64,000 nt of DNA from Scolanthus callimorphus. Its lineage: Eukaryota; Cnidaria; Anthozoa; Actiniaria; Edwardsiidae. The translations under genes and the position numbers were made by a program. The stretch is taken from the NCBI GenBank assembly GCA_033964015.1, contig CM066913.1:24137790-24201789 (forward strand), in the 5' to 3' direction. Every line of letters begins with the position of its first letter. Position 1 is the stretch's first letter. The notes under the pieces were generated by a model. That model saw only the letters and a program-made list of their open reading frames with translations, was not told the origin of the DNA and searched no databases. Below are positions 12,657 to 64,000 of this stretch, piece by piece.

Positions 12657-13027
12657 TTTCTCGTGCTCTTCTTCGAAACTCTCCTCAGGACTCTTCTCAA
12701 AAGAAGGTTGACGCTCGAGCTGTCAAGCTGTCAAGACTGCAGAAGTTGCAGTCTTCTTTCAGCTACTTGCTTGTTGTTGGGTAAATGAGGCGGGTTGTGT
12801 CGCCATGGTAACATCAATTGAAAGTGTCCATCAACAAACTTGAGGGATCTTTCCATGACTTCTAAGGCTTTCGCGTCTTCAACAGAAGGAGACACCTTAT
12901 TTCCCACAGTCATGTCAGTAAAATCTGTCCTCCACAGCTTGTCCATCTGACCTTTCAATTTCTCGTGCTCTTCTTCGAAACTCTCCTCAGGACTCTTCTC
13001 AAAAAGAAGGTTGACGCTCGAGCTGTC
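12438..13027. repeat. About 288-bp tandem duplication within BEL/Pao pol leader
   Basis: Copies at about 12438-12725 and 12740-13027 (offset 302 bp) are near-identical. One has a 1-nt shorter A-run (AAAA versus AAAAA), which shifts frame. The junction holds repeated TGTCAAGC. The duplication separates gag-protease from pol. Confidence 0.92.
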
Positions 13028-14272: not shown

Positions 14273-15468
14273 TCCATCAATGCTGCGCCATCAGGGTTTT
14301 TCATGAAAGGTAAATTCTGCAATAATTTAATATGCGCTGCAGCTACTGCATATGGTTCTCCAAAGTTATCATGCAGAATTTGCTTGGCTGTCAAAAAACC
14401 TTTGGTAGGAGGTAAGTTTACACAACTCTCAATAGCCTTTTTAGCTTTTCCGGTACAATGTTGTATCAACAACTGCAATTTTGTTGCGTCATCGGGATTG
14501 TTTCTCTCCAGAAATGTCTCGAAATTATTCATAAATGAAACATACTTTAACACATCTCCATCAAATTGCAAATATTCGATCTTTGGATTTGTCAGAATTT
14601 GTTGTAATTTAGTTATCATTTCTCTCTGTCCATCACTGCCATGATCTACATCACGTAAACAACTTGGATTAGGACTAGGAGATTTTGGCAGTTCAGCACG
14701 TTTTGGAGCTTCACGTTCTGGAGATTCATATTTTGGCGCTTTACGTTCTGGCGCTTCATGTTTTGGCCGATAATTACCAAGAGAATAATTTTCAACATTC
14801 AACTTTCTCTCCCCGCAAACAGAAAGTTCAGCTCGTCTAGCATCCATTTCCGCTTCTAAAATTTGTAATTTCTGTCTTACCTCTTGTTCTTCTCTTTCTA
14901 ATTCCTGCTTCAATTTCAATTCCCTTACTTTTAACTGCGCAAGTGCCAACTCCTCCTCTTTAGACCGTGTCGATCGCACTGACCTTGACGAACGCGACTT
15001 TGAACTTCGTTTCGATGAACTGGAAACACTACTAAATTCGTCTCCGTACCGACCGTCCTTTTTCGCTTTCCTTTTCCACATTTTCACTCCTGTGTCGATG
15101 TTTAATTTCCGCTGCACTTGCTCCATGTAGCTGTCATTAAGCTTCGCCAGCAATTCTTGATCCTCAGTCAAAGTCACAACTTCCTCTTGAACCCTTATGA
15201 ACCTTTCCATAGTTTCATCAAACTTGTTTACTTGATCTAACAAAGTCTGCCAAGGAATATCAATTCTTAACATCATTGACTGGATTTCATTGTATCTTTT
15301 CGTCAAGACTCCAACCAATGCTGATCTTGAACGTTTCTTCGCCTCTACATCGGCAACCGGCGAGTCCTCCAATGCCGCTCCGATTTCTCGTAGAGAAGTT
15401 AACAGCTCGAACTCCTTTTCCAGCCCTTCGACTCCCGGCGATTCTACCAAACCACCAGACGCTTCCAT
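14245..15468 (-). CDS. gag: BEL/Pao gag N-terminus
   Basis: 407 codons from an ATG at 15468, 51 bp downstream of the 5' LTR. The product has a coiled-coil, charge-rich first half (Lys/Glu/Arg repeats, an SRSSRSVRSTRS stretch near residue 160). A gag core with EYLQFDGDVLKYVSFMNNFE and LLIQHCTGKAKKAIE is typical of the Pao/BEL gag region. It ends abruptly after GAALMEWDRNIHRS, where other members continue in the downstream frame, so about 40-60 nt appear lost. A run of repeated APKxExPER units sits near residues 235-260. Confidence 0.92.
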   Translation of the reverse strand: MEASGGLVESPGVEGLEKEFELLTSLREIGAALEDSPVADVEAKKRSRSALVGVLTKRYNEIQSMMLRIDIPWQTLLDQVNKFDETMERFIRVQEEVVTLTEDQELLAKLNDSYMEQVQRKLNIDTGVKMWKRKAKKDGRYGDEFSSVSSSSKRSSKSRSSRSVRSTRSKEEELALAQLKVRELKLKQELEREEQEVRQKLQILEAEMDARRAELSVCGERKLNVENYSLGNYRPKHEAPERKAPKYESPEREAPKRAELPKSPSPNPSCLRDVDHGSDGQREMITKLQQILTNPKIEYLQFDGDVLKYVSFMNNFETFLERNNPDDATKLQLLIQHCTGKAKKAIESCVNLPPTKGFLTAKQILHDNFGEPYAVAAAHIKLLQNLPFMKNPDGAALMEWDRNIHRS

Positions 15469-15519
15469 GGTACATTTACCAATGCATTAGTCGAAATCTC
15501 GTAGGCAGAAGTCGAAAAC

Positions 15520-27973: not shown

Positions 27974-28518
27974 TCATCTGCTGGTATGGAGATTTCTGGG
28001 AGTCAACTGTGAACTTGTAATAAGCCATTTGCATAGGACTTCTTGAAAATTTACAAGTCCACAGGCAACCACCACCAACTGAGTTGCTAATGGTGCAATG
28101 GAAAGGGGAATCTTTCGCCCAAATAATCGAAACTGCTTTAGTCTCTGATTAAAGCGTTCAACATGAATACGAACTTTGGCTATCTTTCTTGTTTCGAGCT
28201 CCTCTGCTGCACTAAGATTTTTTCTTCCCTTCAAGAAAGCTGGAATTTTCAAATGGGCATGCAAAGGATTAAGCAGATGTTGCACAGTAAATCCACGATC
28301 AACCATAACAATGTCATCAGGGTTGATGTGTTTCAGGATTCCACATTCCTTAAAAATTCGAACATCATCAATGTCCCCTTCGTAAAGATCTGAAACAAAG
28401 CAGGCTCCTCCATTAACGGTAATAGCAATCAAGCACTTGAAAGTGTTTGCATGTTTGTACAAAGAGTATGTATGTCCCTGTCTTGCAAAGTTACGGGATG
28501 TTTCAACAGAAAACTCAG
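27974..28518 (-). pseudogene. ISL2EU-type transposase, DDE domain C-terminal part
   Basis: The frame reads [19 protein letters not shown] and [20 protein letters not shown], then GDIDDVRIF and DIVMVDRGF (second Asp), and [18 protein letters not shown] (Glu region). This is a DDE_Tnp_4 catalytic core. The missing first catalytic Asp lies in the piece past element B: IRCIVDC joins TEFS once B and one TA are removed. It ends at a stop at 27974. The transposase would cut and join the 18-bp TIRs. Confidence 0.85.
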
Positions 28519-28520
28519 TA

Positions 28521-29773
28521 ATATATAGATTTAGCCACTGGCTAAAAGCGGAGCTCCTGGTTATAAAAAAATATGTGTGAATGAAAGGGATTCCCATGTG
28601 TACATGGTTTACATGATTGCTTTAGAGTCTTCCCTTCACGAGATATTATTTTTTCAAGCATAGATGACGTCATCGATGACGTCATATCACGTGACCACTT
28701 CATTTCGCTCATCTAGCGACCTAGACTACACTACCAAAGTTTGGTTGTTTTAGAGTCTTCCCTTCACGAGATATTGATTTTTCAAGCATAGATGACGTCA
28801 TCGATGACGTCATAACACGAGACCACTTCATTTCGCTCATCTGGTGAACTAGACTACATTAACAAAGTTTGGTTGTTTTAGAGTCTTCCCTTCACGAGAT
28901 ATTGATTTTACAAACATAGATGACGTCATCGATGACGTCATATCACGTGACAACCTCATTTTGCTCATCTGGTGGCCTAGACTACACTCCCCAAGTTTTG
29001 TTGTCTTAGAGTCTTCCCTTCACGAGATATTGATTTTTCAAGCATAGATGACGTCATCGATGACGTCATATCACGTGACAACCTCATTTCGCTCATCTGG
29101 TGGCCTAGACTACACTACCCAAGTTTGGTTGTTTTAGAGTCTTCCCTTCACGAGATATTGATTTTTCAAGCATAGATGACGTCATCGATGACGTCATATC
29201 ACGTGATAACCTCATTTCGCTCATCTGGTGGCCTAGACTACACTACCCGAGTTTGGTTGTTTTAGAGTCTTCCCTTCACGAGATATTGATTTTTCAAGCA
29301 TAGATGACGTCATCGATGACGTCACATCACGTGTCCGTGTTACAGCACCCCCCTTGTGGCATAGACAAAATATCCCAAGTATGGTTGTCTTAGCATGTTC
29401 CCTTGAGGAGATATAATTTTTTTATTTGCATACCACAGGGTCCCATGTGTACACGGACGGACGGACGACGGACGGACGACGGACGGACGGACGACGGACG
29501 GACGGCGTACGCTATAGGTTTAATACCAGAAAAATAAAGAAAAAATCATCTCCCGAAGGGTAGCTTCTATAGAAGCCAAACTTGGACAAAGTTTCAAAGA
29601 CCATAAGAGGAACTCTACACCAAAGTCACGTGCCCTAACGTCATCAATGACGTCATCAAAATGATCCATAATGCCCGTGACGTTCAAAAATCAACTCGAT
29701 AGTATACTATACGTTTTTCCCTTAGGTATGGTGTTCCGCTTGCGCGGGCCTTCGGCCCGCGCAGAAGCTCCGC
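28521..29773 (+). mobile_element. Element B: TA-flanked hairpin-ended transposable element
   Basis: Starts ATATATAG and ends GCTCCGC, flanked by TA at 28519-28520 and 29774-29775. Removing B plus one TA fuses the transposase frame (CIVDC-TEFS), proving the boundary. The left hairpin TTTAGCCACTGGCTAAA and right hairpin GCGCGGGCC-TTC-GGCCCGCGC match element A. It has a six-unit internal array, and a GGAC/GGACGAC simple repeat at about 29452-29508. No coding capacity. Confidence 0.9.
28650..29335. repeat. Tandem array, about 127-bp units with CRE palindrome (element B)
   Basis: Six units centred on TGACGTCATCGATGACGTCA, most followed by TATCACGTGA, with regular 127-bp spacing. Confidence 0.92.
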
Positions 29774-35261: not shown

Positions 35262-36377
35262 CTAAAGGGATAAGTAGCATGTCTGCGGATGTATGGTTAG
35301 GGGTGTTATGAAAATGGAGAGAGCGGCGGTAGTGGGTGTAGATTGGCTGTCAGAGTCAAGTGTGCGTCTGTGCTCGTTGAAACGTTCCCGTAATTGTCGT
35401 TTGGTTTCACCTATGTATTGTAGTTTGCAGCGCTTGCAGTGAATCATGTATACAACATTAGAAGTTTTGCATGTGATTTTAGAAGTTATCCTACGTGTTA
35501 GTCCATCAGCAATATAATTACAAGTGTAACAGTTATCACCACAACGGTACGAGCCTGAAGTTTGGTTAATTACATTAGGGCTTTTTAACTGCGCTTTAAC
35601 TAAAAGGTCGCGGAGGTTAGGGCTACGTCTAAACGCCACGATAGGTGGGCTGGGAAAAGCGTTTTTACAACGGTTAGAAGTCTGAAGAATTCTGAAATAT
35701 TTGTGTAAGATGTGAGATATATTAGGGAGGGCAGGGTTATAGGTGACAACAAAAGGTGTGCGATGAGAAGTGTTATTTCTGTCTTTAGGTTTGAGGGCAT
35801 CAGTACGAGAGATAGTGTTAACACGTGATATTTGCTGCTCAATAAAGTCACGTTTATAACCACGATTTTGTAAAAAAATAATAAGTTCATTAGACCGTTT
35901 AATATAGGTATCATTAGTAGAGCAGATGCGGCGAAGGCGGAGAGCAAGGCTGTAAGGAATGCCTTTTTTAGTGTGATAGGGATGACAAGAAGAATGAAAG
36001 AGGTGCTGATGTTTATCGGTGGGTTTACAATACAAATCAGTTTCAATTTTACCATTAACCAAGGAAACAGAGACATCAAGAAAAGGAATATTAGTGAGAG
36101 AATGTTCAGAGGTGAATTTAATGGTGGGATGTAAGTTATTAAGATAAGACACAAAAGTGTTAAGCTCATTAATTCCTTTGTCCCAAATTATAAAAATGTC
36201 GTCTATATATCTCCACCATGTATGAGGTTTATGAGGAGCATTAGCAAGGGCTTTAGATTCGAAATGACCCAAAAAGAGATTGGCAAAAGAAGGAGCCATC
36301 CTAGTGCCCATAGCAGTACCGTGTATTTGGAGGTAGTGTTTATCGTTGAAAGTGAAGTTATTCATGGTGAGAATCAT
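35262..36377 (-). CDS. Penelope-like RT palm and GIY-YIG endonuclease
   Basis: 371 codons. HGTAMGTRMAPSFANLFLGH and WWRYIDDIFIIW (catalytic YIDD) mark the RT, and NIPFLDVSV the thumb. A Cys-rich linker (CGDNCYTC) leads to a GIY-YIG nuclease: VVYMIHCKRCKLQYIGETKR, then LRERFNEHRR. The Met is internal. The upstream RT half (36388-37734) is separated by a 2-nt deletion, because the plus copy has ACTATATGTG where this copy has ACTATGTG. Relative to the plus copy it also lacks about 10 codons just before the nuclease. It ends early relative to the plus copy because of a frame change near 35280. Confidence 0.9.
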   Translation of the reverse strand: MILTMNNFTFNDKHYLQIHGTAMGTRMAPSFANLFLGHFESKALANAPHKPHTWWRYIDDIFIIWDKGINELNTFVSYLNNLHPTIKFTSEHSLTNIPFLDVSVSLVNGKIETDLYCKPTDKHQHLFHSSCHPYHTKKGIPYSLALRLRRICSTNDTYIKRSNELIIFLQNRGYKRDFIEQQISRVNTISRTDALKPKDRNNTSHRTPFVVTYNPALPNISHILHKYFRILQTSNRCKNAFPSPPIVAFRRSPNLRDLLVKAQLKSPNVINQTSGSYRCGDNCYTCNYIADGLTRRITSKITCKTSNVVYMIHCKRCKLQYIGETKRQLRERFNEHRRTLDSDSQSTPTTAALSIFITPLTIHPQTCYLSL

Positions 36378-36387
36378 GCGAATGAGG

Positions 36388-37734
36388 TCACATAGTTTCA
36401 GTGGGAATTTGTCTAGAGGTGCGGGTAGAGAGGAAATGGCGACAAGCGTTTATGCCTTCGTTATGGGGTATATTAGTATACAGAGATGAAACATCAAGAG
36501 TTACTAGCATAGCGTTGTTAGGTAGATCTAGGGTTAGCAGTTTATTAAGAAAGTCGTTGGTGTCTTTTATGTATGAGGGTAGTTTAGATACTAAGGGTTT
36601 AAGAAAGAAATCAACAAACTGGGAAATGCGTTCTGTAGGATGGCTGTTAGAAGACACTATGGGACGGCCAGGATTACCAGCTTTGTGAATTTTAGGGAGA
36701 ATGTAAAAGCGGCCTGGTTTAACGTCATTATTGATAAGAAAAGCTTGAAGTTTCTCGTCAATAAGGTTACTGTTAGACATGCGTTCAACGTATATTACTA
36801 TACGTTTCTGAATGTCATTAGTTATGTCTTTGTGTTGGGGTTTGTAGAATTTTGTGTCGTTAAGTTGCCTTAAGCATTCATTAGTATACCATTCTTTATC
36901 CATTACAACGGTGCCAGAGCCCTTATCTGCAGGTTTAATGATTATATCGTCGCGTTGTTTGAGATCAAAAATAGCAAGACGTTCAGTTTGGGTAAGGTTA
37001 TCTGATATGTGTTGAAGAGGTGAGTTAGTTATTTCATACTTAATGGCATCTAAGTAGTTATTAAGAGTTGTGTTTCTATTAGTGGATGGTGTCCAAAAGC
37101 TCTTTTTACGGAAGAAAGAAAATGTGGAATCTGAATTACATGATTGTGAGTCAGGAGTAACAGAGTCGTTATTGGCAATAGAGTGGTTTGTGTCTTGGTC
37201 TTCGTCTTTGTAAAAATATTCGCGCAGACGCATTCTTCTTGAAAAATCACCGATGTCAGCAGATAGCTCTGACCAGTCAATGCGCTTAGGTGTGGGACAA
37301 AATGTGAGACCACGTGCAAGAACATTAGATTCAGCGTAAGAGAGAGGAGTGCTAGAAAGGTTAATAACTGAGTCGGGTGAAAGTAAAGAAGTACGTTTGC
37401 GTTTACGCCTACATGTCCTTCGTCGTGTGAGGTTATCTCTATTATCAGAGATGTCGCTAGTGGGGGCGGTGACAGAACGGTTAGTATCAGTGTTATCACG
37501 TATGGGATAACGTGACTGTTTTCTAGCACGTCTATTAGCGAGAAGAGATTCTAAAGATAAAGCCATGGAGGTCAACTTATCACAGTAAAATGAAAACAAA
37601 TCTGGAGTACAAGAATTTTGTAAAAGTTCTATCTTTGCTGTGAGTTCTTCTTCGAAGTTTCGTATGTTAACATGACATGCCATAATTAGAAGTTCCAGCT
37701 GGCGGTTAGCGGCGAAAATCCAATTTAGTTTCAT
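36388..37734 (-). CDS. Penelope-like RT N-terminal half
   Basis: 448 codons. The N-terminal 200 residues are low-complexity and Ser/Thr/Arg-rich. Then come FDLKQRDDIIIKPADKGSGT (Penelope-type RT motif 1), RFYILPKIHKAGNPGRPIVS and LVTLDVSSLYTNIPHNEGI (first catalytic Asp). It is interrupted at its end by the 2-nt deletion that separates it from the YIDD half. Upstream, MATLFTQDLP...FYRK (37735-38080) may be the protein's true N-terminus in another frame. Confidence 0.9.
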   Translation of the reverse strand: MKLNWIFAANRQLELLIMACHVNIRNFEEELTAKIELLQNSCTPDLFSFYCDKLTSMALSLESLLANRRARKQSRYPIRDNTDTNRSVTAPTSDISDNRDNLTRRRTCRRKRKRTSLLSPDSVINLSSTPLSYAESNVLARGLTFCPTPKRIDWSELSADIGDFSRRMRLREYFYKDEDQDTNHSIANNDSVTPDSQSCNSDSTFSFFRKKSFWTPSTNRNTTLNNYLDAIKYEITNSPLQHISDNLTQTERLAIFDLKQRDDIIIKPADKGSGTVVMDKEWYTNECLRQLNDTKFYKPQHKDITNDIQKRIVIYVERMSNSNLIDEKLQAFLINNDVKPGRFYILPKIHKAGNPGRPIVSSNSHPTERISQFVDFFLKPLVSKLPSYIKDTNDFLNKLLTLDLPNNAMLVTLDVSSLYTNIPHNEGINACRHFLSTRTSRQIPTETM

Positions 37735-38085
37735 TTTCTGTAAAAACCAGGGACGTTCGTGACGTCTAGGGGTGGTGTACGTCTTGGTAATAGATGAAAC
37801 GGAACAAGTTGATGTTGTTTGAAGAATGTGTAGTTTATTAAATGATGGCGATGTCGAATCAGCTTGAGTTGGACCCGTTTGGTGTCATTAAAAATTCTTG
37901 AAAAAGTTGCTTCTCGCGTGCGGATATATCTTCTTGAAGAAGTGGTGGTGGGTGAAGCTGCATCTTGATGTATTGTAGAAGGTGTTGATCTCTGAATGTA
38001 ACGTCTATTATGTCTATTTGTAGCTAGATTTGAATGGGAGCCAGATGAAGTCGTTCTTGGAAGGTCTTGAGTAAATAATGTCGCC
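37735..38085 (-). pseudogene. Penelope-like protein N-terminal segment
   Basis: The minus-strand frame ends VPGFYRK at a stop at 37731, just where the RT N-terminal frame starts at KLNWIFAANRQ. It contains KRVQLKLIRHRHHLINY and KQHQLVPFHLLPRRTPP, which look like the basic leader of these proteins. The boundary with the inverted plus copy is at about 38085. Confidence 0.6.
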
Positions 38086-39071
38086 ATTTCCTCTCTACCC
38101 GCACCTCTAGACAAATTCCCACTGAAACTATATGTGACCTCATTCGCATGATTATCACCATGAATAACTTCACTTTCAACGATAAACACTACCTCCAAAT
38201 ACACGGTACTGCTATGGGCACTAGGATGGCTCCTTCTTTTGCCAATCTCTTTTTGGGTCATTTCGAATCTAAAGCCCTTGCTAATGCTCCTCATAAACCT
38301 CATACATGGTGGAGATATATAGACGACATTTTTATAATTTGGGACAAAGGAATTAATGAGCTTAACACTTTTGTGTCTTATCTTAATAACTTACATCCCA
38401 CCATTAAATTCACCTCTGAACATTCTCTCACTAATATTCCTTTTTGATGTCTCTGTTTCCTTGGTTAATGGTAAAATTGAAACTGATTTGTATTGTAAAC
38501 CCACCGATAAACATCAGCACCTCTTTCATTCTTCTTGTCATCCCTATCACACTAAAAAAGGCATTCCTTACAGCCTTGCTCTCCGCCTTCGCCGCATCTG
38601 CTCTACTAATGATACCTATATTAAACGGTCTAATGAACTTATTATTTTTTTACAAAATCGTGGTTATAAAACGTGACTTTATTGAGCAGCAAATATCACG
38701 TGTTAACACTATCTCTCGTACTGATGCCCTCAAACCTAAAGACAGAAATAACACTTCTCATCGCACACCTTTTGTTGTCACCTATAACCTGCCCTCCCTA
38801 ATATATCTCACATCTTACACAAATATTTCAGAATTCTTCAGACTTCTAACCGTTGTAAAAACGCTTTTCCCAGCCCACCTATCGTGGCGTTTAGACGTAG
38901 CCCTAACCTCCGCGACCTTTTAGTTAAAGCGCAGTTAAAAAGCCCTAATGTAATTAACCAAACTTCAGGCTCGTACCGTTGTGGTGATAACTGTTACACT
39001 TGTAATTATATTGCTGATGGACTAACACATTACACTTTTTCGTCAACTAATGAAACACGTAGGATAACTTC
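38086..39071 (+). pseudogene. Penelope-like RT, plus-strand copy
   Basis: The same protein as the minus copy, from the end of the first half through YIDD and the thumb, interrupted by three small indels (2-nt loss at about 38443, +1 at about 38670, -1 at about 38790). It retains the 10-codon HYTFSSTNET segment before the nuclease that the minus copy has lost. It stops where element C enters. Confidence 0.88.
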
Positions 39072-39073
39072 TA

Positions 39074-40681
39074 ATATATAGATTTAGGCAATGCCTAAAA
39101 GCGGAGCTCGAATAATAACTGACATACCAGCATTACTGTCATCGCGGTATCGACTTTTCTAGTTTTGATGACGTCATACCGCATGACGTTGGTGGTGCTC
39201 CCCCCTTTCCTCCAAATAACTTTACCCAAGTTTAGTCACCTAGCGATGTTGCCTTCTTGACATATTGACTTCTCTAGTTTTGATGACGTCATCGATGACG
39301 TCATCCCACTTGACCTTGGTGGTGCAACTCCCTTACCTCTGAGATAACTTTATCCAAATTTGGTCACCTAGCGATGTTGCCTTCTTTAGATATTGACTTC
39401 TCTAGTTTTGATGACGTCATCGATGACGCCATGCCACGTGACCTTGGTGGTGCACCCTCCTTGCTTCCAGGATAAATTTACCCAAGTTTGGTCACCTAGC
39501 GATGTTACCTTCTTTAGATATTGACTTCTCTAGTTTTGATGACGTCATCGATGACGCCATGCCACGTGACCTTGGTGGTGCACCCTCCTTGCCTCCAGGA
39601 TAACTTTACCCAAGTTTGGTCACTTAGCGATCTTACCTTCTTGAAATATTTACTTCTCTAGTTTTGATGACGTCATCGATGACGTCATCCCACTTGACCT
39701 TGGTGGTGCACCTCCCTTACTTCTAAGATAACTTTACCCAAGTTTGGTCACCTAACGATGTTGCCTTCTTGCGATATTGATTTCTCTATTTTTGATGACG
39801 TCATCGATTACGTCATGTGGCGTGACCTTGGTGTTGCACCACCCCGTACCTCCAAGATGACTTTACCCAAGTTTGGTCACCTAACGATGTTGCCTTCTTG
39901 AGATATTGACTTTTCTAGTTTTGATGACGTCATCGATGACGTCATGCCACGTGACCTTGGTGGTGCACCCTCCTTGCCTCCAGGATAACTTTACCCAAGT
40001 TTGGTCACCTAGCGATGTTACCTTCTTGAAATATTGACTTCTCTAGTTTGATGACGTCATCGATGACGTCATCCCACTTGACCTTGGTGGTGCACTCCTC
40101 TTACCTCCAAGATAACTTTACCTAAGTTTGGTCACCTAGCGATGTTGCCTTCTTGAGATATTGATTTCTCTATTTTGATGACGTCATCGATGACGTCATG
40201 CCGCGTGACCTAGGTGGTGCACCCCCTTGCTTCTAACATAACTTTAATTAACCCAATGTTGGTCAACTAGCGCCGTGCCGGAGCTCGGTTAAAACTAAAC
40301 ACGAAGGCGACAAAAATAGAAGCGCGCGCGCGTGTGCGTACTTGCCTATTTTCCCGCCTGAAATTGGGATGCCTGTGTGCCGGGCGGACACACACACAAA
40401 CACACGCACGCACACACGGAATTACACTATACGTTTTATTCAGGAATGAAAAGAAAAAAATCATATCTCCATAAGGAAAGCTCCAATAACGACCAAACTT
40501 GGCAAAAGTTGTCTTTAGATTCATACCTGTCTATTGTCAAAGTCACGTGACATGACGTCACTGTTTACGTCATTGAAATTGACAAAAACCTCTGAAACCA
40601 CTCAAAAGCGACTTGATGGTTATACGTCTGAATTCTGATACCACTTTTCCTTATGTATGGTGCTCCGCTCAGGAGCTCCGC
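39074..40681 (+). mobile_element. Element C: TA-flanked hairpin-ended transposable element
   Basis: Starts ATATATAG and ends GGAGCTCCGC, flanked by TA (39072-39073, 40682-40683). The minus Penelope-like copy at about 35463-35500 is a real empty site in the same window (CTTCTAAAATCACATG), confirming TA. The left hairpin is TTTAGGCAATGCCTAAA, with a changed but still paired stem compared with A, B and E. The right end has only the outer GCTCC/GGAGC stem. The nine-unit array is followed by a 430-bp conserved right part containing CACAC and GCGCGC runs. No coding capacity. Confidence 0.92.
39160..40215. repeat. Tandem array, about 121-128-bp units with CRE palindrome (element C)
   Basis: Nine units with TGATGACGTCATCGATGACG-type cores, TCACCTAGCGATGTTGCCTTC and CCCAAGTTTGGTC blocks. 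Confidence 0.92.
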
Positions 40682-40683
40682 TA

Positions 40684-41026
40684 AAATCACATGCAAAACT
40701 TCTAATGTTGTATACATGATTCACTGCAAGCGCTGCAAACTACAATACATAGGTGAAACCAAACGACAATTACGGGAACGTTTCAACGAGCACAGACGCA
40801 CACTTGACTCTGACAGCCAATCTACACCCACTACCGCCGCTCTCCATTTTCATAACACCCCTAACCATACATCCGCAGACATGCTACTTATCCCTTTAGA
40901 ACGACTGACTAACAAAAGAGATTCTGTTAGGAAAGCTAGGGAGGCTTTTTTTATCAACAGAGGTCAAACTTTATCCCCCAAAGGTCTCAATACTAGAGAC
41001 GAAAATTTTAACAATTTCAGCTGTTA
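40684..41026 (+). pseudogene. Penelope-like GIY-YIG endonuclease, plus-strand copy
   Basis: The reading resumes immediately after element C (minus one TA): KITCKTSNVVYMIHCKRCK, LQYIGETKRQLRERFNEHRR, and a C-terminus ending GLNTRDENFNNFSC and a stop at 41026. GIY-YIG enzymes nick the target for priming. Confidence 0.88.
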
Positions 41027-41210: not shown

Positions 41211-41479
41211 TGAAAATTATAAGCTGTTAATCAACCATTCAAGTTTTATTCTTTCTTTCATATCTACTGGTTGATAGGTCCTTTATTGGATCCAGCTTCA
41301 GTTTTACTTGTAAGCGGTCCTGCAAATACTTCAAAGTTTATCCCAATTTCAGGCGGGAAAATAGGCAAGAACGCACACGCGCGCGTGCGCTTCTATTTTT
41401 GTCGCCTTCGTGTTTAGTTTTAACGGAGCTCCGGCACGGCGCTAGTTGACCAACATTAATTAAAGTTATGTGGTGCACC

Positions 41480-42561
41480 ACCTAGGTCACGCGGCATGAC
41501 GTCATCGATGACGTCATCAAAAATAGAGAAATCAATATCTCAAGAAGGCAACATCGCTAGGTGACCAAACTTAGGTAAAGTTATCTTGGAGGTAAGGGGA
41601 GTGCACCACCAAGGTCAAGTGGGATCACGTAATCGATGACGTCATCAAAACTAGAGAAGTCAATATTTCAAGAAGGTAACATCGCTAGGTGACCAAACTT
41701 GGGTAAAGTTATCCTGGAGGCAAGGAGGGTGCACCACCAAGGTCACGTGGCATGACGTCATCAAAACTAGAAAAGTCAATATCTCAAGAAGGCAACATCG
41801 TTAGGTGACCAAACTTGGGTAAAGTCATCTTGGAGGTACGCGGTGGTGCAATACCAATGTCACGCCACATGACGTAATCGATGACGTCATCAAAAAATAG
41901 AGAAATCAATATCTCAAGAAGGCAACATCGCTAGGTGACCAAACTTGGGTAAAGTTATCTTGGAAGTAAGGGGGGTGCACCACCAAGGTCAAGTGGGATG
42001 ACGTCATCGATGACGTCATCAAAACTAGAGAAGTCAATATTTCAAGAAGGTAACATCGCTAGGTGACCAAACTTGGGTAAAGTTATCCTGGAGGCAAGGA
42101 GGGTGCACCACCAAGGTCACGTGGCATGACGTCATCGATGACGTCATCAAAACTAGAAAAGTCAATATCTCAAGAAGGCAACATCGTTAGGTGACCAAAC
42201 TTGGGTAAAGTTATCTTGGAGGTAAAGGGGGTGCACCACCAAGGACCAAGGTCACGTGGCATGACGTCATCGATGACGTCATCAAAACTAGAGAAGAAAA
42301 TATCTAAAGAAGGTAACATCGCTAGGTGACCAAACTTGGGTAAAGTTATCTTAGAGGTAAGGGAGGTGCACCACCAAGGTCAAGTGGGATGACGTCATCG
42401 ATGACGTCATCAAAACTAGAGAAGTCAATATTTCAAGAAGGTAAGATCGCTAAGTGACCAAACTTGGGTAAAGTTATCCTGGAGGCAAGGAGGGTGCACC
42501 ACCAACGTCACGTGGCATGGCGTCATCGATGACGTCATCAAAACTAGAGAAGTCAATATCT
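41480..42561. repeat. Tandem array of element D, main part
   Basis: About nine units in inverse orientation to element C. It ends mid-unit at AATATCT where the RAG1-like transposon enters. Confidence 0.9.
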
Positions 42562-42586
42562 CACAGTCACGTCGGCAGTGACATTT
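42562..42586. repeat. Left terminal sequence of RAGL transposon
   Basis: CACAGTC resembles the RSS heptamer CACAGTG. GACATTT lies at positions 19-25 from the end. This is the 3' end relative to the gene. Confidence 0.6.
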
Positions 42587-43217
42587 AGTTTATCTGCGCC
42601 CGCGGTATGATGAGTTGCGTTCAGCGCCATTTATGAAAGGTTACCCTAGCAACAAATTAGCCAAAAATTCGCCTAGCAAGCGTGCATTGTCTTCCAACCA
42701 ATCATATTGCCACGTTTAATAAAAGGAAGCCGACCAAACAGCCAAAATGGCGGCCAAGGGATTGAAGAAACCGTATGTGGCAAGAATTTGCAAAGAAAAC
42801 GCTTTGAACCGTCGTTTTTACGAGCTTAAATATGGGCATGGGAACTTCAGGATGCGCTCTAGCAATTCTGATGGCCTCTTTTTAAGAGTGAATTGAAGAA
42901 ATCGCAAGGTTTTCCCAAGGAAATGGAGACGTTTCTACGAAAGTCTGATGCTTTCTGGACTACATGGAATGGTAAGAGTTCTAGTCCCATTTGCTTTGAG
43001 AGCTTGAGGCCGCTTCGCGTAAAGCTATCATTCGCTACACCGACGCCATTTTAAAGGGCCGAACATGTACTCGAACCGTTGGGATTGCAATGAATTCATC
43101 CCAGGCGAGGAAAGGAACAAGTTTGAACTATTTAATACAGTGGTTTTACATGGACGGATATTGCGAATTGGCTATATAAAACTGCTGGCGGCTTGGCAGT
43201 GAGCCCTTCTAGTCCAG
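42587..43217 (-). other. RAGL 3' flank
   Basis: Between the left end and the RAG1-like stop codon. No further coding sequence recognised; presumably 3' UTR and subterminal DNA. Confidence 0.5.
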
Positions 43218-46200
43218 TCAAGTACTATTATCGTCAGTCTCCTGAGGACGATTTCTTTTCAAATTTCTCTTTTTCACCTCCGGGATCATTGCTCTATTTG
43301 TAGGATTCACCACCAAGTAGTGACGAAGGAGCATTTGTTTCAGTCTTGTTGTAGCAGGTTTCACTCCAGAGAAATCTTGTTCCAGCCTGGCGAGCTCGTG
43401 ATGAATAGACTCTCCCCCTTGCTCCCCAAAAAAGCCAAGAGGGAACTTCCACCTCCTGATAAATGGAACAATGTGCTCCTCGAGCATGTGCATTTTGGGT
43501 GGGCATGATGAGTCTGGAAATTGCTCACGGTAATAGGCCATAAAGTCTCTGATGTTTGTCTCTACAAGAAATAAATATAAATTAATGGAATATAAGTATT
43601 CAAACCGTTTAAAAAAAAATTATTGCAATAGTGTGAGCTGTTTTTGTAAACCTTCTTGTGAGTGATAGAGATATTTTTGTTCTTAGGTCCAGGTACAATA
43701 CATGTGTTTCCTTTAATCAACATACCTAGCTGGTCAAGATCCTTTTCATCTTGCACTGTAGCACTATTGAATCTCTTGTGGCAGCAAGCATATAGGCTGA
43801 ATAGCTTGGAGAACTTGTGGCTTGTCTCCCGGGCCTCACTCAGCAACTCGGTTTTACTCACTAGGTTCTCAGTAGTGTCAGTAACTGCACTGCATATGAC
43901 TAGGATGTTTTTGTCCTGCAGGGTATTTTGAGAGAAAAGCATAGCAACTTTAATTTGTTTAAGGTTTCCTTATATTACTTTGTGAAGTTTTAGATTCATT
44001 AATGAATGAAGCCCTTTTCTGTTAAATGAATATACCTTAAGGCATGTATCAACATGGTTCCCCACAAAACTGTGGCTGTGGTAGGCCTGCCGTTTGACAT
44101 TGATACTCTGTAAAACAGCCTCGATGGCTTTGCAGATAGGTCCAGAGTGTCTAGCATGGGCTGTGGCTGTCAGACAAGCCTCGCTTAAGGTCCGCTGTAG
44201 ATGAATCCAAACAAACAAAAGTTACTGCATTTATTTTAAATTATGTGAAGTCAAGTGAAAAAAATGTTTAGGGGAATATGAAGTTTCAGTCATTTGACAT
44301 TTGAAGGTTGGGGCTGAGTGAATATGTTTTGTTTTTGTTGGGGCTGAGTGATTTGAGATTTTATATCATATTAGCTGTACATGATTTTCATAACACTGAT
44401 TTACCTCCTTTTCTGCCTTTTCTCTGAGAGCTTTAATGGATTCCATCATCCCTGCTATCAGTGCTTCAGATATCTGCATGCTGTTGTTAGCATCTAACGA
44501 CATCAGATTTGTCATGTATCCCTCAATTGTGGAAGCTTCATCCTCGAGGCCTTGTGCTGTTCTGTTGTGCTCGGCAGCGTTTTTAGATTTGTGACATGCT
44601 CATTGAGATCACTGTCTATGTTCTGCTCAGTGGCACTGCTGTTTGACAGCTCCCAAGCAATTTTCTCATCAAGCACAGCACACTCCTCTATCATCATGTC
44701 GAAAAACTTAAGAAATAGCCCAAGGCTTATATGTAGGCCAGGGGTGCAAATCTAAAAAAAAGCATGCGTATATAGAGGATATTACACGGTGGCACAAAGA
44801 TATGAGTTTTATTTTCGAGTGGCAAGAACAATATTTTACGAATGAGGGCAGCAAGAAAATAAAACTCATATATTTGTGCCACCGTGTAATTTTCTTTTTA
44901 TATAGACAAACCAGAAAAAATATTCCAAATTGATTTCTAAGTACTTTTGTTTCGACCGATATCCTCACTAGTGAGGATGTGGAAAATATGTCACTCAGAT
45001 CGTGGATGTAGCTTCATATGAGATCTATGAGTGGCATATTTCCCAGTAAAACACTCAAGTATAATAAAAGCTGATATTGCTTCAAGATACAATTATTTTA
45101 TTGAAAATGCCATACCTGTTCAATGGGAATATTAACAATTGGCTCTTGGATAACATTGAAGAACTTCTTGGCTTTCTTGATGTCCCCTCCCCCTTCCACT
45201 TGGAAAGCACGAAGAGACTCCTTCAGGTTGTCCAGTGATCTTGTGATGACTTCTCCTCTCTGTTCCTTTGGGAGTTTCATATCCTGTGCTGTTACCGTGC
45301 ACCAAAGGCATGGGTGTCGGCCTGACAAAAACAGAATTGAATGTTATTTGAATTTTAAAACACTGTATACATTTTCCAACTAACATATTTCTGATCAGTT
45401 ATAAAAGCATGCATGTACCTGAAGCTCCACTGATCCCTAGTAACTTGCACAGCAATTCATAGTCACCAAACAAGAAAAGAACAATCTTTTTTCCACTGCA
45501 AAGAGATGCATATGAATAGGTATTTTAGATTGAAGATGAAAGCTCAAGTCCTATTTTGTGTATATATGTGTATATTCTACTAGTGATAGTCACTAACACC
45601 TAAGAATACCTCCATGTTGCTTTGGTCAGTTCTTCAAGATCAGCAGCATGCTGTCCAAGTACTAACTTCAGGTTGTTTCGGGTGTCTTTTCCCTCAAAGA
45701 TGGAGAACACAACAGTCTTTTTGCTAGAATTGGGCTTGATCACATTGGCAAGCTGAAACTCCATTTTCATTGAACCTTTGCCATGATCCCCACCAATTTT
45801 AATAAAAAGACTATCTTCTGGAATGTTTCCATCATGCCAAGTCAAAGCACCAACCCTGTGTGGATTAAAGTATTACAACTTATAGAAATGTATTTGAATT
45901 GTTAACTAATGGGCTTAAAATGCTCCTGGACTTAATTGACTTTGACACTAACCTTTCATTTCATCTATAAATTTCAGGATTTTGTCTTTGAGATCTTTCA
46001 CAAAGACACATGGGGTTTCTTTTATATAGGTGATGGTCTGGTGTCCACGCCTGTCGCTGTGTTCTAGGGGCAACATTTCTCCATCAAGCTCATCACCAAA
46101 GGTCTCTTTGATTGACAGTCGCTGCTTTTTTTCACTCTCCAATTTAACATTCCATTCTCTGAACCATCTAGAAATCAAATTAAAAGATTATGCTGCAAAT

Positions 46201-47592
46201 ATGGAATTTGGGAGTTACATGTCTATGATTTGTACATTCCACAGTCGTTACCTCCTGAGCTTGTTTAGTTTGTTCCATGTAAGGCCCAAGTCCCCCATCA
46301 TGGCATTTGCTTCACCCTCCGGGATTTGCAGCACCAACTCCTTCCCTATTGCCTGACGGAGAAGTTCCTCCCTTTCTGCCTTGTTTTTCTTTTTTAGGCT
46401 AGCCACTAAGTGTAGGTCTTTCTGGCCACTGCTGACAGCATCGCCAACTGACTCTATAATTGCAGTTCGTCTTAGGCGATGGCGCGTACTGACTTGGTCG
46501 GAAGATTTACCAGCAATGGGGACATGAACAACACCTAAGGGCTAACATTCAAAATGCAGAAATTTTATTACAAGCATCATTTAATAGCTGAAACAAGCAA
46601 CAACAATAACAAACCTTTCCCCCAGTCTTCAAGAGCACCGTTTTTCCATCGGGAGAGGTCTTCATTTTTTCGCGTACGAAAGCACTGCACAGTTTCTCAA
46701 CTGCAGGATCAAGCTTCCCACCTTTTACTTCCTCTATTATTTTTCGTATTGTCAGATCTGCTTCAGTGGGCGTTTGGGGTTCTTGTTTTTTTCCTCTTTT
46801 CGAGCATGTGTGTGTAACTGTGTCTTCGTACTTCAGTTCTTCGCTGCACTGCTTACATATCACATTTTGTTCCGCCAGGAGCCGCAGTACCATTCTAGTG
46901 GGAAATTTCAATTTCCCAACACAGCGCTTACAAAGGGGGCAATCCTTACTCTGGCTAGCCTCGAAGACGCCCTTGATGCATTCCGCACAAAAATAATGTT
47001 CACATTCAGTTTCAATTGGTCTGTCTAATATCTGAATACAAATTGGACATTTAAAATCAGCTCGAGGTTCAGTCTCAAATATGAACCTGGTTGCGAAGTC
47101 ATCCAATCTATATGACTTTAGGTCGGACACCAATTCATCGACTGTGATAGGCATTGTTTCAACGCCAGCTTCTTTCTTTGTTGCTGAACCCGCCGCAAGA
47201 GTTTTGCCAGGCTTTCGTCCGCGTGCTCCTTTTTTCGGTCGCCCTCCTTTTTTGCGCTCGGCAACCCTCTCACAAATTTCGCAGTTTATCTCTGAATGTG
47301 CTGGCCATATAACTGTTGATACTCCTCGACGGTTTGGATGCACATAGCATGCATGGCAAAGTGATTCTGGGTGAATGTCGAGTGAGTCTTTAGCGATGTC
47401 TATCGAAAACTTTTCCAGAAGAAACTCACTTTTATTAGAACACTTAAATGATGACGAAGTAGGTCCTGTGGATTTCCTTAACTTTTCACCGCAAACTCGG
47501 CAAAGCCCTTTAAGGCTTCGCTGTGCGAAGTCATATCTCAGACGGCATGGGATGAACAACACTCGATAATTCAGTTGCAATTTCTGTGCCAA
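43218..47592 (-). CDS. RAG1L: RAG1-like transposase, 10 exons
   Basis: Exons by GT-AG rule and phase: 46615-47592, 46252-46541, 45953-46167, 45610-45855, 45419-45495, 45116-45321, 44405-44751, 44036-44194, 43726-43915, 43218-43561; about 1017 residues. Exon 1 has CRVC, HPESLCHAC and CEIC zinc pairs, then a C3HC4 RING (CPIC..CEHYFCAEC..CPLC) and CKQC..HTC, as in vertebrate RAG1. Catalytic candidates: Asp in IKIGGDHGKGS (exon 4, D600), Asp in LFLFGDYELL (exon 5, D708), Glu in GEQGGESIHHE (exon 10, E962). The zinc site CLWC plus HMLEEH matches RAG1 CxxC/HxxxxH. Frame needs one extra nt at the exon 3/4 junction and one in exon 7 (A-run at about 44580), so this copy is slightly broken or has sequencing errors. 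No start ATG in exon 1; an upstream exon is likely. Confidence 0.9.
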
Positions 47593-48150
47593 CGCGGGTT
47601 CAAGTAATACAGTAAGACAAGTTTAACTGGACTTAAGACAGTTCAGTTTCGTGGATATTTTATTTATTGCTACAAAAGAGCTGATGACTTAATCTAGAAA
47701 TAACATTTTAGAACTGTAATTTTACACCTATCAGTGGAGATCTAATACATCGGTGCCATGCAGCGGAAGATCAAGTCAGTGACGCAAATTTCTCCCACGA
47801 AATAAGCTCTCATAAAGTCAATACCTAGAAGGATTTATAGTCCAAAATTACATATACAATGTCATTTGTCTATTTCTTCACAAATAAACTTGATATTTGA
47901 AGTTAATATCACAAATTACTTCATTTTAGAGCGATGGGCATTTTCACCCGGTACTCAGGTCGTGTTTCATTGTCAAAGCGGTGCGCGCTGCATGAGTTAA
48001 TAAAGTGTCGCAATTTTGGTGAAAACTAAATGGGACTAGAACTCTGGAAATGGATCTTGGCTAATAAAAGGTCCATAAGTATAAAACAGCTTTTCCTTTA
48101 ATCCAGAAAACCTCAGGAGTTTTGTAACGTCGCTCTAAATTTCATGTATA
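47593..48150 (-). other. RAGL 5' region upstream of first recognised exon
   Basis: No clear first coding exon. The frame of exon 1 stays open back to a TAA near 47615 without an ATG. Confidence 0.4.
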
Positions 48151-50217
48151 AACACGTCTTGATTTAATTCCGGAGCTAATGTTTAAATCCGGACTGTCAA
48201 AAATATCCACACTGAAACGTTTTTTAGGAGAAATCTACTTCTAGCTGGAGATGCAGGCCATTTCTCCAAACAATTTGGAGAACTCAACAGCAGCATGTCA
48301 GAATTTCCATAAAATATGGAAAAATGCTTTTTAAATCAAGAGCTTTGAAGAAGGTGACACAAATTCCATATAAACTGGAGAACGAAAGCGGTGTCAGATA
48401 TACGGTCTACACGAGAAGAAAATTATCACATTGCAGGAGAGTACAAAAATCGGTTCAAAACAAAAGCCATATCATCGAATTCTCTCTGCCAGGAGACGCT
48501 TCATTACTTAATTCATAAATCGCTTGAGAAAATTGCGTCCACGGTTGTTTTCGGCCTGTACTTTCATTAGAACAACTGATGAGGCAATCTGCGACTGTAG
48601 TGTGTACACGAATCAACAGAGACATGAATTAGCAAATACATCTTTGAGACGGCCCCTATAACTCTAGTGACTCTAGTCACTTTTTTATGAAAATCAAGGT
48701 AACCAAAAACTCCATTAAATATGAAATACATATACAGTAATTCCGTAGATTGCTTTCATAAACTAAACTGTATTAGCTAGCTGCATGTGTTCATTTAATG
48801 TTGCAATTGACATGGCGATTCAGAATTTCCATAAATTATGGAGAAAACACGTCTTTGACAGCATTGCTTCAAAAGATTGTTCAAAAGCCTATATAGAAAC
48901 TCGAAAAAAATCAGATAAGATATACAAAGCATGCTATTTTGTATGTGACCTTAACAGCAGCAGAAGTAGACAGATAATAAACACCGTGAACAAATATCGA
49001 CCATGGTGATCAAACCTCAAATAAAGATATTGATGATATAAACCTAGAGTAGTATTTCTAAGGCTTAGCAAATTGATCAATTCACCAATCCTTAAAACTC
49101 CCGATTTTGCACCCTCTACATCAAAGTTCCCCCAAACGTGTGGTAATTTTACATGCTAGGCTCTGAATTTACGGCCCTGGAAGGGCATCCAAGCCAATTC
49201 CTATCTAGGTTTTATTAAAAACCCCGCGAAAAGTTTATTAAAAGTCCGCGCAATTTATTGCTTCAGGGATTCACGTGGCTAGGCAACTCGAGGTAACTCA
49301 CTCTGAGCTGAAACTGAGAAACAGGATTACAAACAAACAAATCGACTTTGCAAAATGCCCTCCGTGAAAATGGTTCCGGTAGCTGTCCTACGGCAAACGC
49401 CGTGCCAGACTCGCGCCGTTCCATATAATCGAAAGTTTCCATTACAGTAAAACCCCGATGTTACGATACCCCACGGGGGCAACGAGCGAAATTACACCGT
49501 AAAATCAGGGCACTGTATCGTTTTATATGAACTTTCGATATAAGGATTTTAAAGGCGAGGTATTTGCCGGGACCCAGAACAGTAATCGTAAATTATAATG
49601 AAGCTGCAACCCCCGTGGTGACTGGAAAACGCTCAAATAGCGCGCTACAAAGACTTTTACGAATTTTATCTTGTTTACGGTCGTGTGGGAATGTAAGTGG
49701 TATATTTTGAAGGCTCACAAATGGCGTATTTTCGATCTTCTAAAGGTCATATCAAAGGCAAAATGTAGAGAACGTCATCTCAGATTTTCCACAAAATGTG
49801 GAGAAATGCTTTTTTAATCAAGATCGTTGAAGGGATGTTTGCATTGTCGGATATAAGGTTTTTAAAGCAAATTTATAAATTCATCGATTCGTCTATTTTG
49901 CGGCAGTGAAATCGAAACCAATTCCTGTACAACGTTTGATTGAAAATGCAATGGTACACGATGGAAACCAACTATATCCGAGTTTATAAAAAGCTCAAAG
50001 TGAAAGAACAAGAGTCTCTTGTTATTCGAGATATGATAAAATATGACCTTGTCAGGTAGCAGTAGTAGAGACTTTCCTATAAAACATGAATGGATGTACT
50101 AAGCGGAAAGAACGCTGCTAAGTGTGACAAGAATAGCGAGTGTATAGTCTGCACATACAACGAAAAGCACCCACATAAAAGTCATAAATCGAAATCCCTT
50201 TTAGAGTCTAAATAAAG

Positions 50218-55145: not shown

Positions 55146-56358
55146 TGTTAAACTTCATACATTTTTGTATAACACGTTAGTATATATTTTCAGCTTAGTA
55201 TATAATGGCGTATTAACTAAAGAAATGATTGTATTTACGTTTTGTAGAAAGAAAGGTAAGATCAATCTAATTGAAAATTCAAGCGCCGTCTGTTCGTTTT
55301 GCACGGCTAAGGTATTTAGGCGAAGCAAGACTGTATAATCCCCATCTTAATCCTCCATGCGTTGAAGCACAGTTTAATAGCTTTTATTGAGATACAATAT
55401 CTAATTATATACTGAGTTTGCCAGGAAAGTAGGGCAAACGCGCTGAAAGGTTTGCAGAGGTCGTGTTTCAGGGAAGCGCGAAAATCCCTGCTACTTAATC
55501 TCCCATGACTGACAGCATATATGGGCACCCCGCGGAAATTTCCGAGATTCAAGCACAAAACTCACCAGGGTGCCGCATATTCAGACCTTACTGAAGTTCA
55601 TCATGTCTGTTGCGAATATCAGAAAGATCTCCACTGTACTAACATGGGCATCGGTCGAAATTGTTCACGGTTTCAATCTGTCTACTTCTGCTGCTGTTAA
55701 GGTCACATACAAAATAGCTTGCTTTGTATATCCTATCTGATTTTTCGAGTTTAACTATATAGGCTTTTGAACAATCTTTTCAAGCAATGCTGTCAAATAC
55801 GTGTTTTCTCCATAATGTACGGAGATTCTGAATCGCCATGTCAATTGCAACATCAAATGGACACAGCAGCTAGCTAATACAGTCTAGTTTGCGAAAGCAA
55901 TCTACGGAATTATTGCTAGAGTTATAGGGGCTTGCTTGCCCGAAGATGTAGATAGTTAATCATTGCTAATTGTGTCTCTGTGTCGCAGAAGGAATTACAG
56001 CAGTCGTCTACCTATAACTGGCAGAGAGAATTCGGTGATGATATTTCTTTTGTACCAATTTTTGTACTCTCCAGCCTTGATAATTTTCTTCGCGTGTATA
56101 TCGTATATCCGACACCGCACTCGGTCCAGTTTATATGGAATTTTTGTCACCTTCTTCAAACATATTGATTTAAAAAGCATTTCTCCATATTTTATGGAAA
56201 TTCTGACATGCTGCTGTTGTGTTCTCCAAATTTTTTGGAGAAATGGCCTGCATCTCCATCTAGCTGTAGATTTCTCCTAAAAAACGTTTCGGTGTGGATA
56301 TTTTTGACAGTCCGGATTTAAACATTAGCTCCGGAATTAAATCAATACGTGTTGTATA

Positions 56359-56669: not shown

Positions 56670-56673
56670 ATCT

Positions 56674-57050
56674 AAAGAAGGTAACATCGCTAGGTGACCA
56701 ATTTGGGTAAAGTTATCTTAGAGGTAAGGGAGGTGCACCACCAGGTCAAGTGGGATGACGTCATCGATGACGTCATCAAAACTAGAGAAGTCAATATGTC
56801 AAGAAGGTAACATCGCTATAGGTGACCAAACTTGGGTAAAGTTATTTGGAGGAAAGGGGGAGCACCACCAACGTCATGCGGTATGACGTCATCGATGACG
56901 TCATCAAAACTGGAAAATTTATTCTCGTGAAGGGAACATTGTTAGGAGACCGTACTTGGATTAAGTTTTTTTTTGGAGGCAAGGGGATGCACCACCAAGA
57001 TCACGTGGCATTACGTCATCGATGACGTCATCAAAACTAGAAAAGTCGAT
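56674..57050. repeat. Tandem array of element D, remaining part
   Basis: Three more units, continuing in phase from 42561; then the unique left end with its hairpin (57109-57116 region). Confidence 0.9.
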
Positions 57051-57127
57051 ACCGCGATGACAGTAATGCTGGTATGTCAGCTATTATTGGAGCTCCGCTT
57101 TTAGGCATTGCCTAAATCTATATATTA

Positions 57128-62791: not shown

Positions 62792-63582
62792 TAATTGTTT
62801 GTACAATTAGAGTTCAGAGTACTTGAAATTTGCCTATAGTGTCACAAACTTATATCAATCCTTATGCACAGCTACTAAAGCCTGCATTAAGAACACAGGG
62901 AACTTCTTCGACACGTATGTCGATAGAACCTTGGGTGTAACACAAGCTATGAGAAACATAAATTTGTGCAAGAAATTATTGCTCTTTTTCCCTGTGAATC
63001 TGTACTCAAATGGTTTATCCTTACCTCTAGTGACGTCAACCCACAACTCTACCTTCTTTGCCAAACGAGTTAGATGACAATCATTTCTTAAAACTGGCTG
63101 TGAAATTTTGCTATAAAGGAAGTGATCTTTGCACGGTCAGTTTTCGATGATAAATCAGTATTCTGGCCTCCCTGTTTCTTCAGATTTTAAACTTGAGCAC
63201 TTTTTGAACAGTTTTCAGGCGGTCACAGGTGTACCAGTTATCCTTGACCTCACTTCCAAAGCAGTCATCAACATTAGCAGTAGATCATCGTAAACTGAAT
63301 TTCATGTACCCATAAGGATAGATTTCACATAAGGCGTTAGCTTAATGTACGGAACTAGCCGAGCTACGGGAAGATGTGAGATGATAATGCGTTGCTCCAC
63401 CTCCTCTTTCGCTACACTTACAGGCCGCAGCCCTGTACTTCTTCATATACTGTTTCTTACCCGTTACCCCAGAGCAATAGATCCAATCGGCTAACTCAGG
63501 ACCGCTGGTCACGTGACCTGAATTGGGTGCCTGATCAAAACAAACACCGGGCGCTCACACGTGGACCTCTGTCAGATTCGCG
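62792..63582. other. Intergenic / probable 5' flank of the THAP gene
   Basis: Only the 40-nt repeat (63052-63091) is notable. Frames at 62823-63077 show no motif. Confidence 0.4.
63052..63091 (+). repeat. 40-nt exact repeat, copy 2
   Basis: Identical to 58770-58809, same orientation, 4.28 kb apart, on the other side of element E. Confidence 0.9.
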
Positions 63583-64000
63583 ATGCCTCACTTTTGCTGC
63601 GCCGGAGAATGCGAAAATAGTTCGGAAAAAAACAAGGATCTGTCTTTCCATAGCCTTCCTCTCGATGACAAACCTTTGCTGAACTTATGGATTCAAAAAA
63701 TGCACAGAAATCCGCGTTATTTCAACATAAACAAGCATGTGAAGATCTGCAGCGTGCACTTCCGATGCAGCGACTTTGTAAATCCTTATGCTAAGAAGCG
63801 GCGATTAAAGCGCAACGTAGTTCCTTCAAAATTTGCTTGGACTCCTGAAGAAGATGAAGAGGGAGAAGTCGTGGAGAGGACAGCAGTTTCAAAACTAGAG
63901 CAAAGTAGGACCGAACAAGATGAAGCTACCGATACTGCATCTGAGGACGAAGGCGAAGAGCTGAGCGTGAGTGGTCTCAAGTTAACTTCGCAAAAGACTC
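63583..64000 (+). CDS. THAP-domain protein, 5' part (runs off the window)
   Basis: ATG at 63583 opens a frame that is still open at the window edge (139 codons). Residues 1-90 are a THAP zinc finger: CCAGECEN (CxxxC), LWIQKM (the invariant Trp), KICSVHF (CxxH) and a basic patch AKKRRLKRNVVPSKF, where VVPSxF is the AVPTxF-like end of THAP domains. An acidic linker follows (TPEEDEEGEVVE, DTASEDEGEEL). THAP proteins bind DNA; many are host transcription factors and many others are transposases. The clean frame is unlike the broken THAP at 30.6-30.86 kb and is the best candidate here for a live gene. Its kind cannot be decided without the remainder. Confidence 0.85.
   Translation, partial: MPHFCCAGECENSSEKNKDLSFHSLPLDDKPLLNLWIQKMHRNPRYFNINKHVKICSVHFRCSDFVNPYAKKRRLKRNVVPSKFAWTPEEDEEGEVVERTAVSKLEQSRTEQDEATDTASEDEGEELSVSGLKLTSQKT

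Follow-up and report, generated by a model that had tools for sequence, protein, structure and literature searches.

The gene on the minus strand at positions 47583-43218 of the window (the whole 64-kb stretch of Scolanthus callimorphus DNA that was analysed) very probably encodes the transposase of a cut-and-paste DNA transposon of Chapaev type, or is what remains of one, of the kind that carries a Chapa zinc region and a RING finger. An earlier note on this DNA had proposed a RAGL transposase. That the product is a RAG1-related DDE transposase holds, but the RAGL label does not, as the core is nearer to Chapaev/DUF1280. The check set beforehand, that a non-RAG DDE family might align better, came true, and Chapaev/DUF1280 aligned far better.

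Gene structure

The gene has ten exons and nine introns, all of them GT-AG; for exons 2 and 10 the boundaries were taken from the splice-junction letters. We searched the 2726 stop-to-stop ORFs of the window (at least 15 residues) with a profile of 32 relatives. Ten ORFs matched, one per exon; the matches are collinear over positions 6-845 of the model, and their E values run from 2.6e-37 to 2.1e-11. Beyond these no ORF of the window matched at E <= 0.1; chance is therefore excluded. The exons and motifs, with the exon limits used and the profile E values, are as follows.

46615..47534, minus: exon 1 from the likely Met (limits used 47583-46615; search string from 47583); Chapa zinc region, KGGRPKK motif, RING, then a zinc finger
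47505..47534, minus: likely start MTSHSEALKG; relatives start M..H...L..LCRVCG
47272..47502, minus: three Cys pairs of the Chapa/RAG1 N-terminal region; CRVC from 47502, CHAC from 47358, CEIC from 47283
46930..47049, minus: RING finger
46252..46541, minus: exon 2, helical, between RING and core; E 1.3e-16
45953..46167, minus: exon 3, DUF1280 core begins; E 2e-16
45610..45855, minus: exon 4, first catalytic Asp, GGDHG 45794-45780; E 6.8e-37
45419..45495, minus: exon 5, second catalytic Asp, FGDYE 45470-45456; E 2.1e-11
45116..45321, minus: exon 6, CLWC half zinc site 45310-45299; E 3.9e-23
44405..44751, minus: exon 7, helical insert; E 2e-15, first half only
44036..44194, minus: exon 8, family motif RQAYHSHSFVGNH; E 1.6e-17
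43726..43915, minus: exon 9, helical region; E 2.2e-13
43218..43561, minus: exon 10, HMLEEH zinc half site 43490-43473 and stop codon; E 2.6e-37
43407..43427, minus: catalytic Glu in exon 10, GEQGGES 43427-43407

The ten exons were as previously described, but the continuous product of about 1017 residues was not recovered, as the exons do not splice into a single open frame. There are three breaks. The likely start Met (47534) and the LCRVCG frame, which starts at 47505, are in different phases; the chosen GT-AG sites join exons 3 and 4 out of phase; and a frame shift lies inside exon 7, somewhere in 44599-44512. The second half of exon 7 (ORF 44599-44366) had no match to the 32-relative profile and is presumably coding. 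No further in-exon stops were seen in the chosen frames over about 1000 codons. The 1014-residue string used for searches has an X at the second and third breaks, leaves out a few residues at the third, and has at its start, in front of LCRVCG, some 22 residues that are uncertain. As assembled, this copy of the gene can probably not be translated. At 44769-44902 intron 6 contains an inverted repeat of 48 nt (90 %) around a 38-nt loop, perhaps a small hairpin element.

Family assignment

The core matched Pfam PF06918/DUF1280 (E 2.9e-12, 47.1 bits, cut-off 25). DUF1280 proteins are described as putative Chapaev transposases, and RAG1 and DUF1280 form one RNase H-like clade in a published tree (PMC3985635). 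When the best 7991 candidates by shared words were scored, at least 33 relatives were recovered at E <= 1e-3, and 33 of the 33 matches listed had PF06918; a rescan found it in 32/32 relatives. The matches listed include proteins from Hydra, Nematostella, Oculina, echinoderms, lancelet and a nematode, and one more relative (P0017) is perhaps of sponge origin. The partial nematode match (P0033) was excluded from alignments A2 and A5, which used 32/33. Alignment A1 took in 18/33 relatives, A3 13/33 plus the window exon and A4 11/44 RAG rows.

Within a 77-protein set, the nearest sequences by identity were two partial anthozoan proteins, from Oculina (45 %) and Nematostella (44 %). In BLAST of the search string against this set, a core-only Chapaev row (P0001) scored E 7e-138, whereas the best RAG1L core stretch (P0070) reached only E 0.002. 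The two groups also differ in their Pfam domains: the 44 RAG1/RAG1L rows have PF260xx/PF261xx listed and no PF06918, and the 33 Chapaev rows show the opposite. A maximum-likelihood core tree of 30 rows separated the window gene and 22 Chapaev rows from 7 RAG1/RAG1L rows with 100/100 support. This tree sampled 22/33 Chapaev and 7/44 RAG rows and left out the two nearest anthozoan rows, which are partial; it was built without Transib, CACTA or Mirage rows and does not fix the position of the window gene inside Chapaev.

The Cys-rich tail carried by two RAG1L rows (P0070 and P0072) is absent from the window gene, in which exon 10 ends in ...RNRPQETDDNST. No kelch domain, as would be expected of a convergent RAG2L gene, was found by Pfam in ten flanking ORFs, a scan that a split and diverged gene could escape.

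Catalytic core and predicted fold

The window contains a DDE triad, and the stretch from the second D to the E holds C(2)C and H(3-4)H. In profile-profile alignments (hhalign, 97.7 % and 97.4 %), the acidic residues align with those of RAG1 that we take to be D600, D708 and E962, and the zinc residues with the RAG1 CxxC and with what we number H937/H942. The identity to RAG1/RAGL in profile alignment is 12-14 %. Both the acidic residues in these contexts and the CxxC plus HxxxxH zinc site (CLWC and HMLEEH) had been read correctly from the letters. The first catalytic Asp (GGDHG, equivalent to D600) is D in 32/32 relatives, the second (FGDYE, equivalent to D708) is D in 31/32 with 1 gap, and the catalytic Glu (GEQGGES, equivalent to E962) is E in 29/32 with 3 gaps. 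Over the whole set of D, D, E, C, C, H and H the residue is kept in 29-32/32 relatives, the rest being gaps apart from one Tyr that replaces the second Cys. The equivalence to D600/D708/E962 is not specific to RAGL, because it is common to the CMC/Transib group.

The AlphaFold2 model of one relative (P0003, 34 % identical to the window protein) had a pLDDT of 84.2. Its best structural match was RAG1 (Z 28.2, 463 aligned, 3.8 A), followed by HzTransib (Z 25.8, 405, 3.3 A), BbRAGL (Z 25.7, 457, 4.4 A) and the P element (Z 14.1). By analogy with this relative, the window protein is predicted to have a RAG1-like folded core.

As for the mode of action, the helical and zinc domains of the protein would bind the transposon ends and the transposase would dimerise. 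The RNase H-like DDE site would then cleave, as in RAG1 and Transib, and the element would be inserted elsewhere. The RING may serve as a ubiquitin ligase or as a dimerisation module.

N-terminal zinc region and RING finger

Exon 1 matched Pfam PF12560 RAG1_imp_bd (26.2 bits, cut-off 23.3) and PF00097 RING (33.3 bits, cut-off 21), and its best PDB match by phmmer was mouse RAG1 151-380 (E 3.6e-9). The three N-terminal Cys pairs and the RING of the earlier note are both present (CRVC, CHAC and CEIC; RING at 47049-46930), and with both Pfam matches above their cut-offs its view that a RAG1-type N-terminus with RING is kept was borne out. At each of the six Cys positions 17-19 of the 32 relatives have a residue, which is Cys in 16 or 17 of them. 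The AlphaFold2 model of 46615-47583 had a pLDDT of 77.4 and a pTM of 0.42.

A profile of the N-terminal region from 18 relatives, with the window gene excluded, had RAG1 as its best match (residues 97-435, E 1.6e-34), and against the RAG1 N-terminal region alone (21wb) the 18-relative profile reached E 1.1e-15. The 145 N-terminal residues of the window gene by themselves gave only E 0.033 against 21wb, and in the 77-protein set the N-terminus of the search string matched a fish RAG1 (P0074) with BLAST E 3e-15. For the RING itself the situation was less uniform: by profile the RAG1 RING (1rmd) scored 57.1 bits against 50.1 for TRAF6, VIA-align placed RAG1 level with TRAF6 and LNX, and in Foldseek with the exon of the window RAG1 ranked below both. 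Not all of the relative set shares the full N-terminus, because PF12560 was found at E <= 0.01 in 10/32 relatives and the PF00097 RING in 4/32, many of the rows being partial.

We infer that the helical region of exon 2 occupies the place of the RAG1 NBD. In one profile alignment the NBD-like helices start at a conserved TGGxP/GGRP motif. For the P0003 model, the structural match extends back to RAG1 residue 394 in one chain (4wwx_B, rmsd 10.8) and 408 in another (6cil_A, rmsd 9.6), and to 458-480 only in the remaining RAG1 rows.

Relation to known elements

Kapitonov and Koonin described the 'Chapa' domain of Chapaev as corresponding to part of the RAG1 N-terminus; they name Chapaevs from lancelet and sea anemone genomes and place a RING after Chapa in two subgroups (PMC4411706). 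The gene fits this description, and its Chapa plus RING architecture is not new, such Chapaev genes being already known from that paper. These CMC-group subgroups (PMC4411706, PMC4079192) likewise have the DUF1280 core, the DDE residues, C(2)C and HxxxxH, and the same N-terminal Chapa zinc region and RING as the window gene. In contrast to published Chapaev elements, no intact CAC...GTG ends or target duplication were found in the scanned flanks of this copy, and its frame has breaks.

With RAG1 and RAGL (ProtoRAG) the gene has in common the order of N-terminal zinc region, RING and core as well as the equivalent catalytic and zinc residues, and the likeness also appears in the predicted fold of the relative. 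It differs from them in its low identity in profile alignment, in another Pfam core family, in having no CCGHC tail and in that no RAG2L was seen. Transib (HzTransib) has no RAG1-type N-terminal region according to PMC7204232, and is set apart here by that description. The Aplysia N-RAG-TP is described as consisting of RAG1 N-terminal-like sequence in a mobile element and nothing else (PMC8355894); compared by description only, the window gene adds a Chapaev core. Chapaev, Transib and RAG1 transposases have been aligned and placed in a tree in PMC12730594. Our limited literature search, based on partial texts, found no published comparison of a predicted Chapaev model with RAG1 structures.

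Transposon ends

According to PMC4079192, Chapaev elements end in CAC...GTG inverted repeats and are accompanied by duplications of 3-4 bp. We found no CAC...GTG inverted ends (at least 10/14 matching) with an exact 3-5 bp duplication in 40.5-43.2 kb and 47.6-53.0 kb. The scan thereby also allowed the 5-bp duplications of RAGL type, none of which was found, and a decayed copy would fail it as well. One pair of sequences brackets the gene:

42975..42992, plus, and 48028..48045, minus: 18-bp perfect inverted repeat

This pair is a possible terminal or subterminal repeat. It has no CAC ends, and the sole 4-bp flanking match has mismatched termini. A 17-mer of it occurs nowhere else in the window at up to three mismatches, and comparable pairs were rare in shifted controls (5/230, two of them being the 18-bp repeat itself). 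The locus is a Chapaev-type transposase gene; it is not called a complete transposon because no CAC...GTG ends were found in the scanned flanks and the 18-bp repeat has no CAC.

Alternative readings

The RAGL (RAG1L) transposase with a retained N-terminus, as first proposed, can point to RAG1 as the best match of the N-terminal profile, to the aligned D600, D708 and E962 equivalents, to RAG1 chains as the top structural matches of the relative's model and to the occurrence of RAGL in corals (PMC7204232). RAGL pairs have been published from cnidarians, namely from corals and from a jellyfish (PMC7204232, PMC9435367). We rejected this identity on the DUF1280 core, a domain that separates Chapaev from RAG1/RAG1L rows, on the BLAST values of 7e-138 against 0.002 and on the 100/100 split in the tree; the missing Cys-rich tail and the lack of kelch in ten flanking ORFs speak against it too, and we regard it as highly improbable.

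Two further readings concern the state of the gene. That it is a dead, decaying Chapaev copy, no longer translated, has a chance somewhat short of even, and would be compatible with a Chapaev transposase. The three frame breaks and the lack of clear transposon ends argue for decay, whereas all nine introns retain GT-AG and the roughly 1000 codons have no other stop in the chosen frames. The breaks, whose exact positions are not fixed, could moreover fall in short G or A runs, which are prone to sequencing error. Domestication of a Chapaev transposase as a host gene that anthozoans retain seems unlikely. The single copy within the 64-kb window, the lack of clear ends, the many introns, the conserved active-site residues and the anthozoan relatives at 44-45 % would suit such a gene, but the assembly has three frame breaks, the surroundings are dense in transposable elements and there is no sign here of one-to-one orthology.

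Origin of the RAG1 N-terminus

For the source of the RING-bearing N-terminus of RAG1 two answers have been published, namely recombination with an N-RAG-TP-like element (PMC8355894) and inheritance from a common ancestor with Chapaev (PMC4411706). As a Chapaev transposase, the locus is one more member of that family, and it shows that a RING with RAG1-like motifs is insufficient for a RAGL label. The Chapaev gene and the predicted fold of its family make inheritance of the RAG1 N-terminus testable. Inheritance is favoured by a RAG1-type N-terminus on a Chapaev of an early-branching animal combined with the predicted fold of the family core, whose nearest solved structures are RAG1, BbRAGL and Transib. 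We give about even chances to Chapaev and RAG1 being homologous over their full length, from the Chapa zinc region through the RING and the NBD-like helices to the full DDE core. If so, the complete RAG1 domain plan predates the split of Chapaev from Transib/RAG and was already in cnidarian, perhaps sponge, elements, and the RAG1 N-terminus would be no late transposon graft.

Sequence neighbourhood

Five tandem-repeat arrays of 127-128 bp, alike by eye and with a core like ATGACGTCATCGATGACGTCAT, lie in the window:

6110-6898: tandem-repeat array
28617-29421: tandem-repeat array
39167-40246: tandem-repeat array
41472-42563: tandem-repeat array
56670-57051: tandem-repeat array

One of the arrays stops some 650 bp short of the gene's 3' end. 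A BEL/Pao-type LTR retrotransposon (9168-15486, minus) contains Peptidase_A17, DUF5641 and an integrase zinc domain. Its frame changes near 14250-14290, and at 12438-13027 it carries a tandem duplication of 302 bp (99 % alike), possibly an assembly artefact. The same may apply to an exact 171-bp tandem duplication (100 %) at 7550-7893 within a LINE-like ORF. A DDE_Tnp_4 (Harbinger-type) transposase fragment (27977-28621, minus) adjoins a tandem-repeat array. A GIY-YIG retroelement with adjoining inverted partial copies (35265-37884, minus; 38079-39078, plus; 40632-41024, plus) is presumably Penelope-like.

On the opposite strand, 3' of the gene, 42747-42980 (plus) combines a ATGGCGGCC start context with a GTAAGAG donor-like site, the latter overlapping the 18-bp inverted repeat at its edge. 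This segment had no notable Pfam match and may be the initial exon of a convergent gene. On the other side, a dispersed inverted repeat (48147-49002 and 55653-56358, 73 % alike over 863 columns) starts about 100 bp past the 18-bp repeat. At the window edge, 63535-63999 (plus) is an ORF with a THAP domain.
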